DNA of 24,327 bases from a virus. Shown here one piece after another: positions 2,756 through 13,576 of the stretch. How positions within the stretch are numbered: position 1 is the stretch's first letter; every line of letters begins with the position of its first letter. The notes beneath the pieces are model-generated. The model ran no database searches and was not told where the DNA came from. It saw only the letters and a program-made list of their open reading frames with translations. The position numbers were made by a program, and so were the translations under genes. Location: the IMG/VR virus record IMGVR_UViG_3300042542_000919, positions 1 to 24,327 of that record. One strand, given 5' to 3'.

Positions 2756-3178
2756 ATGAGTACAACATTAATTTCAGTATCTAACGATGTATTGCGCCAA
2801 GTAGGTGTTTCAGAAACATTGACAGGTGCAGCAACTTTAACTGCTGAGGATAGCGGTAAAGTATTTATTCTTAACGCTGCTGCAGGAGCGCAAATTACAC
2901 TACCTGCGGTTGCTGATGCAACAGGTCATTATTATAAGTTCATCGTAGGTGCATTATTTGCTACAACTGCTTGGACTATTAAAGCGGCTTCAAACAAAAT
3001 TCAAGGTGGTGTTATCGTAAACAGCACAAACGTACCGGGTGCGGATGAAAACACAATTACTTTTTCTGCTTCTGCTGACACAATCGGAGATTTCGTAGAA
3101 TTAAATTGTGATGGTACTAACTGGTATGTTTTCGGATTAGGAACATCAGCAGGTGCAATTACATTAACAGTAGTATAA
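2756..3178 (+). CDS. Capsid decoration / head-fibre type protein
   Basis: 140 residues, rich in Ala, Thr, Val and Gly, predicted beta. It contains SGKVFILNAAAGAQITLPA (residues 32-50) and CDGTNWYVFGLG near the end, a pattern seen in beta-structured phage surface proteins attached to heads or fibres. It sits immediately before the major capsid gene and has the same highly A-rich leader, as expected for a protein made in equimolar amounts with the capsid. It would bind the outside of the shell; a fibre subunit is the alternative. Confidence 0.6.
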   Translation: MSTTLISVSNDVLRQVGVSETLTGAATLTAEDSGKVFILNAAAGAQITLPAVADATGHYYKFIVGALFATTAWTIKAASNKIQGGVIVNSTNVPGADENTITFSASADTIGDFVELNCDGTNWYVFGLGTSAGAITLTVV

Positions 3179-11717: not shown

Positions 11718-11830
11718 AAGTGTTTAAGCTATACAACCCTAAGCAAAAGATTGACTACCGTAAAATAAAGCAATGGAGGGTTCGTGTTAACATATCAAAT
11801 AATTTTTACAAGAATTATGAGTTTGATTAA
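11714..11830 (+). CDS. Very small basic early protein
   Basis: 38 residues, MKVFKLYNPKQKIDYRKIKQ then WRVRVNISNNFYKNYEFD, basic and aromatic. Its ATG overlaps the previous stop as ATGA (11714-11717). It is the last gene of the P1 run; a new promoter-like box begins at its end. No function recognised. Confidence 0.55.
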   Translation: MKVFKLYNPKQKIDYRKIKQWRVRVNISNNFYKNYEFD

Positions 11831-11849
11831 ATAATAATTATTATATTTG
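11822..11849 (+). promoter_or_regulatory. Candidate promoter of the replication genes
   Basis: TATATTTG (11842-11849) is a perfect -7 box. The nearest TTTG (11822-11825) is 16 bases upstream, three short of the 19 seen in the P1-type promoters, so the -33 contact may be weak or absent. Transcription would start about 11853-11857, exactly where the structured leader begins. Confidence 0.5.
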
Positions 11850-11852
11850 CAA

Positions 11853-11966
11853 AACATACGACCGAAATGCAAAAAGACTTTATTAATTTAAGGAAGTGTA
11901 AACCGCCATATAATCATTTGGTCGTGTGTTATTGTGGCGGCTTCCTTTATAAAAACACGACCGATG
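11853..11966 (+). promoter_or_regulatory. Structured leader of the initiator gene with competing pairings
   Basis: Three elements are visible. A (11853-11869) pairs with B (11915-11930) over 16 positions including one T-G pair, with G11864 bulged. A second stem joins 11890-11896 plus 11903-11910 to 11933-11947, with a six-base bulge and a GC-rich core CCGCCA/TGGCGG. C (11955-11962, ACACGACC), just before the initiator ATG at 11964, is perfectly complementary to GGTCGTGT within B and resembles A. A-B and the second stem interleave and cannot both form fully. This looks like a two-state translational switch; the behaviour is inferred from pairing only. A 43-codon ORF (11867-11998) also spans it. 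Confidence 0.6.
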
Positions 11967-12593
11967 AACAATCAACAAGGATGGATAAAACTCCATAGGC
12001 AAATTCTCGAATGGGAATGGTACTCAGATAATAACTGCTTTCGGTTATTTCTTCATTTGCTTTTAAAAGCTAATCACAAAGAAAAACGATTTAAAGGAAT
12101 TGAATTAAAAGTAGGTTCTATTGTTACAAGTCGTGACCTATTAGCACGTGAAACAGGTTTAACATCACAGCAAATTAGAACTGCTTTAACTAAGTTAATT
12201 TCAACCAACGAAATAACCAACGTTACAAGTTCGCAAGGTACTATTATTCAAATAGTTAACTATGAAAAATACCAAGTACCAACCAACGAAATAACAAACG
12301 AGCAACCAACGAGCAACCAACAATCAACCACTAACAATAATGTAAAGAAAGAAAAGAAGTTTATAATACCAACTTTTAATGATGTTTTGGAATATTGTAT
12401 GCAGAATAATTTAGACGTTGATGGAGTAAAATTTATTAACTTTTACGAATCAAAAGGATGGATGGTAGGTAAAAACAAAATGAAAGATTGGAAAGCTGCT
12501 ATTCGAACTTGGGTAAAACCTAAACAACAAGTTGAAATTTCACCTGAAGAACTAAAAGCAATTAAACTCGGATTCCTAAAACCTAAACAATGA
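11964..12593 (+). CDS. DnaD-like replication initiator / replisome organiser
   Basis: 209 residues from ATG 11964; a GTG at 11934 inside the leader is rejected. The N-terminus GWIKLHRQILEWEWYSDNN, FRLFLHLLLKANH, GSIVTSRDLLARETGL and SQQIRTALTKLISTNEI form a winged-helix domain typical of phage replisome organisers. A Thr/Gln/Asn-rich linker follows, and the C-terminal part has FYESKGWMVGKNKMKDWKAA, the DnaD-like end. It would bind the origin and load the helicase encoded next, whose ATG overlaps its stop. The structured leader may control its translation. Confidence 0.75.
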   Translation: MNNQQGWIKLHRQILEWEWYSDNNCFRLFLHLLLKANHKEKRFKGIELKVGSIVTSRDLLARETGLTSQQIRTALTKLISTNEITNVTSSQGTIIQIVNYEKYQVPTNEITNEQPTSNQQSTTNNNVKKEKKFIIPTFNDVLEYCMQNNLDVDGVKFINFYESKGWMVGKNKMKDWKAAIRTWVKPKQQVEISPEELKAIKLGFLKPKQ

Positions 12594-13576
12594 TAACACA
12601 AGAAGGCGATTGCCTGCAATATCTTTTAGATTACAAAGACGGCAAAATAAAAGACGGATTAAAAATTGATTGTCATTTAGATGAGTACATTAGATTTAAA
12701 CCTAACCAACTAAACATAATTCTCGGACACGATAACGTTGGGAAAACCTATTGGATAAATTGGTACTTCTTAACACTTGCACTTAAACACGATTTAAAGT
12801 TTTGTATTTGGAGCGGTGAAAATAAGAAAGCTACAATACTTCGTGACTTACTCCAAATGTATTACGGAATAAGATTTAAGGATTTAACCTACCAACAAAT
12901 AACAACAGGAACAACAATAATCGAACAGCAGTTTAAATTTATAAGCAATAAAAATCTTTACAAACCAAATGAGTTATTGAAGTTGTTTGAAGAAAGCGAA
13001 TGCAATGTAGCATTAATTGACCCATTTACCGGGTTAGATAGGCAAATGGATTTTCAATCTAATTATAATTTCTTAAATACTTGCCGTGATTTCTGCAATA
13101 AGTTTGGAGTTACAATATACATAAACACGCATCCAAACAGCGAAAGCGGTAGAAGTGGCAATATTTATCAGGAAGGCGAATATAAAGGACATTTGAAAGC
13201 ACCATTGAAAGACCATATCGAAGGTGGTAAAGCATTCTCAAATCGTTGTGATGACTTATTTGTTATTCATAGATTAGTAAAACACGAGACAATGAAATAT
13301 GTAACGTGGGTAAATGTAGAGAAAGTTAAAGATATGGATACGGGTGGTAAACACACAGCATTAAATGACCCTATTATGTTTGATTTTAATTCAGGCTTAG
13401 GATTTAAAGTTAATGGAGTTGACCCGTTATTTAATGTTAGACCAAAAATTTCAAATAGCTTTCCTATTCAGACTCATATTGTTGAATTAAAAAACAAACC
13501 CGATATAGTAAACGGAAAAGAATTACTTTCGTTTAGCGAAAAGATGAAACAAAGTAAAGGCGATGTTCCGTTCTAA
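12590..13576 (+). CDS. DnaB-like replicative helicase (RecA-type ATPase)
   Basis: 328 residues. GHDNVGKT at 46-53 is the Walker A motif, and NVALIDPFTGLD (139-150) the Walker B strand. YINTHPNSE and a later Arg/Lys-containing segment resemble DnaB motifs 3 and 4. It lacks the N-terminal DnaB domain, as in short phage helicases. It would unwind DNA at the fork after loading by the initiator, with which it is translationally coupled. The last four residues, DVPF, resemble the SSB C-terminal tip. Downstream, in-frame stops repeat every nine bases in a tandem repeat. Confidence 0.75.
   Translation: MITQEGDCLQYLLDYKDGKIKDGLKIDCHLDEYIRFKPNQLNIILGHDNVGKTYWINWYFLTLALKHDLKFCIWSGENKKATILRDLLQMYYGIRFKDLTYQQITTGTTIIEQQFKFISNKNLYKPNELLKLFEESECNVALIDPFTGLDRQMDFQSNYNFLNTCRDFCNKFGVTIYINTHPNSESGRSGNIYQEGEYKGHLKAPLKDHIEGGKAFSNRCDDLFVIHRLVKHETMKYVTWVNVEKVKDMDTGGKHTALNDPIMFDFNSGLGFKVNGVDPLFNVRPKISNSFPIQTHIVELKNKPDIVNGKELLSFSEKMKQSKGDVPF

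Follow-up and report, generated by a model that had tools for sequence, protein, structure and literature searches.

The replication operon carried by viral record G000, whose 24,327-nt stretch analysed here is called the window, is preceded by a 5' leader in which one segment (B) can pair with an upstream segment (A) or with a downstream segment (C) bordering the initiator start, and in which B itself lies in the loop of a hairpin (S). At the sequence level, comparison of leaders establishes that the segments pair, that these pairings are conserved and covary, that a promoter box is present and where the element lies; the structure is thus well supported, and we infer that it can switch. Elements of this kind precede replication genes in many phages of Bacteroidota bacteria. 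Our preferred reading, to which we give an even chance, is that the 5' leaders of these replication operons act in cis as attenuator-like RNAs. The element has the look of an inbuilt brake on the replication of phage DNA, and it would represent an RNA-level control point for that process in phages that are abundant but little studied, with a crossing pair built onto the loop of a terminator-like hairpin.

The leader in the window lies behind a -7 box of the Bacteroidota type (Table 1), for which the consensus TAnnTTTG is quoted in PMC7366714. Judged by promoter consensus only, transcription would start at about 11852-11857, in agreement with the original prediction, which put the promoter so that transcription begins at the first base of A. 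A sigma-70 scan is ill-suited to Bacteroidota promoters. A second TTTG lies upstream of the TATATTTG box, at 11822-11825. The initiator frame is open upstream as far as a GTG at 11934, within hairpin S; the start common to the relatives of the initiator is the ATG at 11964.

Table 1. Features of the leader and replication operon in the window.
Feature	Position	Strand	Basis
Promoter box TATATTTG, -7 box of the TAnnTTTG type of Bacteroidota	11842..11849	+	sequence and consensus
A, 5' segment, partner of B, near-copy of C	11853..11866	+	sequence, class 1 comparison, folding
Leader frame, 43 codons, overlaps initiator start	11867..11995	+	open reading frame
S 5' arm	11890..11909 (11890-11896 and 11903-11909)	+	sequence, folding
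B, inside loop of S; partner of A (14 bp) or C	11917..11930	+	sequence, class 1 comparison
S 3' arm	11934..11947 (11934-11940 and 11941-11947)	+	sequence, folding
C, the other partner of B; 1 nt separates it from the initiator ATG (11964)	11955..11962	+	sequence, five leader types
Replication initiator, DnaD-like helicase loader; gene under proposed control	11964..12593	+	PHROG 2514, E 1.6e-26
Primase/helicase-like gene, next in operon	12590..13576	+	protein-level assignment

The helices that had been predicted upstream of the initiator gene are all present. A (AACATACGACCGAA) and B (TTTGGTCGTGTGTT) form 14 unbroken base pairs, G-U pairs included, or 16 positions if one bulge is allowed. The predicted GC-cored stem is S, which has an outer part of 7 bp (11890-11896 with 11941-11947) and, after a 6-nt bulge, an inner part (11903-11909 with 11934-11940). 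C (ACACGACC), the start-region segment that A had been said to resemble, pairs perfectly over its 8 nt with 11920-11927, and the B:C pairing reaches 10 with extension. These stems had been said to compete. B does have two partners, A and C, but A:B and S cannot be treated as plain alternatives: since B sits within the S loop, the two helices cross in a pseudoknot or kissing topology, and they need not exclude each other completely. The folding energy is unremarkable by itself and no proof of the pairings, the minimum for the window leader being -22.0 kcal/mol against -18.6 +/- 3.1 in mononucleotide shuffles. With -22.0 kcal/mol for A:B and -21.3 kcal/mol for S, the two states are nearly equal, while as isolated duplexes A:B (-18.6) is stronger than B:C (-15.2 kcal/mol). 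What does support the pairings, at the level of sequence, is the comparison across leaders.

Loci with close relatives of the window initiator provided five leader types, which we call class 1: CGACC (the window, L001, L002, L004 and L005), GCAACC (L016 and L022-L024), a first form of ACAACC (L003/L025/L034/L035), a second form of ACAACC (L006/L026) and GGGCAG (L007). These types differ in letters, and every one retains both A:B (14, 13, 8, 10 and 6 bp) and B:C (10, 11, 9, 9 and 8 bp), with C adjoining the initiator ATG throughout, so that the covariation search proposed for homologous leaders gave a positive answer. Per type, a shuffled C equals the real B:C in 0 to 0.85% of trials. At L007 473-588, an initiator 91% identical to that of the window over the match stands behind a leader that is unrelated in sequence and has the same A-B-C layout; leaders have therefore apparently been exchanged. 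S is not followed by a U-run in the window or in its nearest relatives.

The same comparison bears on the 43-codon frame, which could be read as the functional part of the leader, encoding a peptide coupled to the initiator. It overlaps the initiator start and is open in four of the five class 1 types; however, it is missing from L007 and was not seen in the sister group described below, and the substitutions between L006 and L026 change amino acids while preserving stem pairing. We consider this reading highly improbable. The original prediction would have been refuted by relatives that keep the peptide and lose the pairings, and L007 presents the opposite, with the frame missing and the pairings kept. 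As a conserved entity the peptide is ruled out by L007 and L006/L026, and a conserved function of the frame is, judging from these sequences, probably not there.

Beyond what the original prediction had covered, the wider family mostly carries a terminator-like end and no C. Members of this sister group (class 2) were first detected by a structural scan of all loci. They keep the window's A-S-B-S' order and promoter box, with a U-run in place of C: TAnnTTTG is followed by a helix P1, whose loop begins with A, then by a linker, a hairpin P2/P3, which has B as the last part of its loop, the U-run and the first gene. A covariance model (R1), built on P1, P2 and P3 only and excluding A:B, yielded more elements; its seed sequences had been chosen for A:B, and the later matches had not. 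Across 58 distinct sister rows, 97.9% of cells are paired, with 462 double changes; shuffled rows give 131 and slid partners 32-69. In the same rows the A:B helix, no part of the model, is 97.3% paired and six of its eight pairs are doubly changed; among 108 distinct sister elements it has at least 7 bp in 107. DNA-binding repeats such as iterons or operators are ruled out, the letters varying freely with the complementarity of P1, P2, P3 and A:B retained.

The promoter box stands immediately upstream of 99 of these 108 elements, a U-run of at least 5 is found in 102, and the first ATG lies a median of 19 nt downstream. A stem directly before a U-run ahead of the first gene is thus a feature of the sister group and not of the window; a generic terminator scan, which allows only short loops, does not call the sister hairpins. 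Downstream of the 108 elements there is no copy of A (a C) above chance.

Some regularities of the sister group raise the question of whether any switching occurs. The P1 helix begins at about the first transcribed base, and the spacers are nearly fixed, with a linker of 13-14 nt in 51 of 56 elements, a loop 1 3' side of 6 nt in 47 of the 56 rows and a loop 2 5' side of 2 nt in 52. Several unpaired bases, among them an A and AUA in loop 1 and GA and an A in the internal loop, are 95-100% conserved. This near-constant spacing points to a single compact fold and suggests that a crossed state of A:B and S may exist; the two may even coexist as a rigid fold with no switching. A constitutive structural element of this sort, protecting the 5' end of the message or yielding a stable short RNA, would suit the position of P1, the conserved unpaired bases and the spacers, but it does not account for the recurrence of C beside the start of the initiator in class 1 or for the U-run of the sister group, and we rate it as rather improbable. 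Alternatively, the conserved loop and internal-loop bases could bind a ligand or protein in a riboswitch-like leader with the U-run or C as its output, which would fit one kind of core combined with two kinds of output. We regard such a leader as distinctly improbable: class 1 and the phi13:2 type described below lack most of the conserved unpaired bases and still keep A:B, so that these bases are not essential to the layout.

Classes 1 and 2 are likely to have a common origin, because they share a layout and because L007, class 1 by its C, is matched at the right place by the class 2 model, if weakly (E 0.6 in 560 kb). L007 may be a bridge between the classes. L044 is matched by the class 2 model with E 0.01, and the window leader is not recovered by the class 2 covariance models. 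By eye only, a linker flavour AAAGA..UUAUU is common to both classes.

We folded growing transcripts of 12 leaders from both classes with a nested method, in which the crossed state of A:B and S is not representable. On emergence of B, A:B has a probability of 0.91-0.99 in all 12 leaders; by 20 nt later, once the 3' arm of S is out, the value is at or below 0.01 in 11 of the 12. A:B stays at 0.55 or above throughout in the window type. Completion of S removes A:B from the nested prediction in the class 1 types other than the window's, and in the complete leader the pair is back in L016 (0.72) and L022 (0.59). In this nested folding the early pair precedes the terminator-like stem, the order expected of an attenuator, although the two helices cross and may coexist.

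For the attenuator-like leader acting in cis, we infer the folding order, termination, start blocking and signal as follows. Transcription would begin at A, and newly made B would pair with A, as the folding of growing transcripts indicates; the 3' arm of S would emerge next, giving a hairpin that encloses B. In the sister group this hairpin abuts the U-run and would form a terminator-like end about 19 nt upstream of the first gene. The window and its closest relatives have no U-run, and here B would be free to cover C, directly upstream of the initiator ATG; in the window, A:B would be the default state, leaving C exposed. With A bound by B the operon would be open, and removal of A by a second RNA copy, a protein or a ribosome would allow B or S to shut it. 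The outcome would be replication genes that are held back or self-limiting.

A pattern made from the element alone, in which the initiator was not used, matched 48 viral stretches. An initiator or window-type helicase lies within 0.9 kb downstream in 24 of the 33 loci examined, and several of the others end too early. Upstream of more distant initiators lie other variants, in which the loops are shorter (GATGCA type) or A:B is longer (L044 2872-2977, L173 1384-1477 and L050 ~2860-3000). Cellular genomes contain few relatives of the initiator, and these are distant. Model R2 found the element in none of 296 Bacteroidota genomes, a result of little weight, as 14 candidates were scored per genome and the positive control was silent; a BLAST search of plasmids with one element as query gave no match.

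Two sequenced isolates open the element to experiment. In Cellulophaga phage phi18:3 it is upstream of gp007 and a DnaD-like loader, and in Tenacibaculum phage Gundel_1 (L397 6011-6110) it is right upstream of gp064, which is named anti-repressor Ant and is not an initiator. Cellulophaga phages phi13:2, phi46:3 and phi19:3 (L401 1540-1660, L402 1533-1653 and L403 1533-1653) have the promoter letters of phi18:3 and a different leader, comprising A (CTCTCACAA) without P1, a hairpin whose loop contains B (TTGTGAGAG) and a U-run; it appears as if swapped immediately downstream of the transcription start. One element per record is usual. The exception is the 47-kb record G008, which has L389 (G008:C1:17061-17154) and L396 (45537-45630), of loop types CGTCTAAC and GGTCTCAC; L396 is directly upstream of an initiator-like gene.

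Such diversity would also be expected of an RNA that acts between molecules. P4 is temperate, and its CI RNA is processed from a transcript and acts in trans. According to PMC4825925, segments seqA and seqC flank CI in the leader of the P4 replication operon. A trans-acting self-repressor of this sort would have the B of a short RNA pair with the A and C segments that further transcripts of its type carry, leading to copy control or to exclusion of related phages, with the loop letters as specificity types. The A-B-C order does correspond to seqA-CI-seqC upstream of a replication operon (PMC4825925), but C was not found in the sister elements, and the fixed spacers favour intramolecular pairing. 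Specificity types could account for the approximately 34 loop forms among the 108 sister elements, for two elements with different loops on one record and for Cellulophaga relatives that have common promoter letters and a different A/B pair. However, the A:B helix is not more variable than P1 and P3, its double changes amounting to about 29% of cells over eight pairs, or 39% over the six variable pairs, against 36% and 41% in P1 and P3; hence no special push toward new specificities is seen. There is no sign of an antisense promoter, which agrees with action in trans by the leader itself: the box CAAAnnTA, the one promoter type covered, occurs in 3 of 108 sister elements against 6.6 expected. 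On the other side, tyrosine integrase and resolvase profiles (PF00589, PF00239) had no match in 26 records, some possibly incomplete, and no integrase is listed for Gundel (PMC8776804). We think trans action unlikely, if worth keeping in view. Also doubtful, taken as a whole, is the wider proposal of a novel kissing-loop leader RNA family that is widespread in apparently lytic Bacteroidota phages, combines one core with two outputs (either a terminator or a segment that copies the start region of the initiator) and limits replication in trans, through its short RNA, between phages that share a loop type.

The original prediction knew of no described family with this layout. No Rfam family matches, but a similar layout has been described, namely that of P4 CI RNA with seqA and seqC (PMC4825925). 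The likeness extends to a position in a replication operon's leader, with a promoter of its own (here by consensus only), to an inner segment complementary to segments upstream and downstream (in the window and class 1, not in the sister group) and to transcription termination, the output proposed for the sister group. The leaders differ from P4 in that a search for signs of a temperate state found no integrase in 26 records, in that their end is either a U-run like that of an intrinsic terminator or a segment copying the start region, and in that A:B crosses in cis; membership in P4 CI RNA immunity is not claimed. Gifsy-1 IsrK is a prophage short RNA ending at a terminator, and translation of its readthrough message depends on pairing (PMC4825925), so that a short RNA with a terminator end and a pairing-dependent readthrough message are points of likeness. 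IsrK, however, is a trans activator, and the passages on it in PMC4825925 do not describe a pair between its 5' end and its terminator loop.

Rfam 15 has no family at gathering score in the window, and for the window leader and eight relatives it gave nothing relevant at E up to 5, c4 (RF01695) included. In phages P1 and P7, the c4 antisense RNA is short and is transcribed from the same promoter as the gene under its control. The Gundel_1 element, directly upstream of the anti-repressor gene, is reminiscent of this arrangement, whereas the lack of an Rfam match in the window or the eight relatives sets the leaders apart. Initiator genes of plasmids, too, have leaders whose pairings alternate or cross and which control the gene by attenuation or at the start site, as in pT181/pIP501 attenuation and the IncI repZ pseudoknot. 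These plasmid leaders use antisense RNA from the opposite strand, and here the opposite-strand box CAAAnnTA across the leader (3 of 108, 6.6 expected) does not point to one. The literature searched, with few subscription papers in it, describes no kissing-loop leader in these phages. Because there is no Rfam match, and because the temperate state of P4 was looked for and not found, we rate the element as a new family within the attenuator and leader-RNA kind. If trans action were true, it would amount to P4-like RNA exclusion in apparently lytic phages, with the loop letters serving as specificity types.
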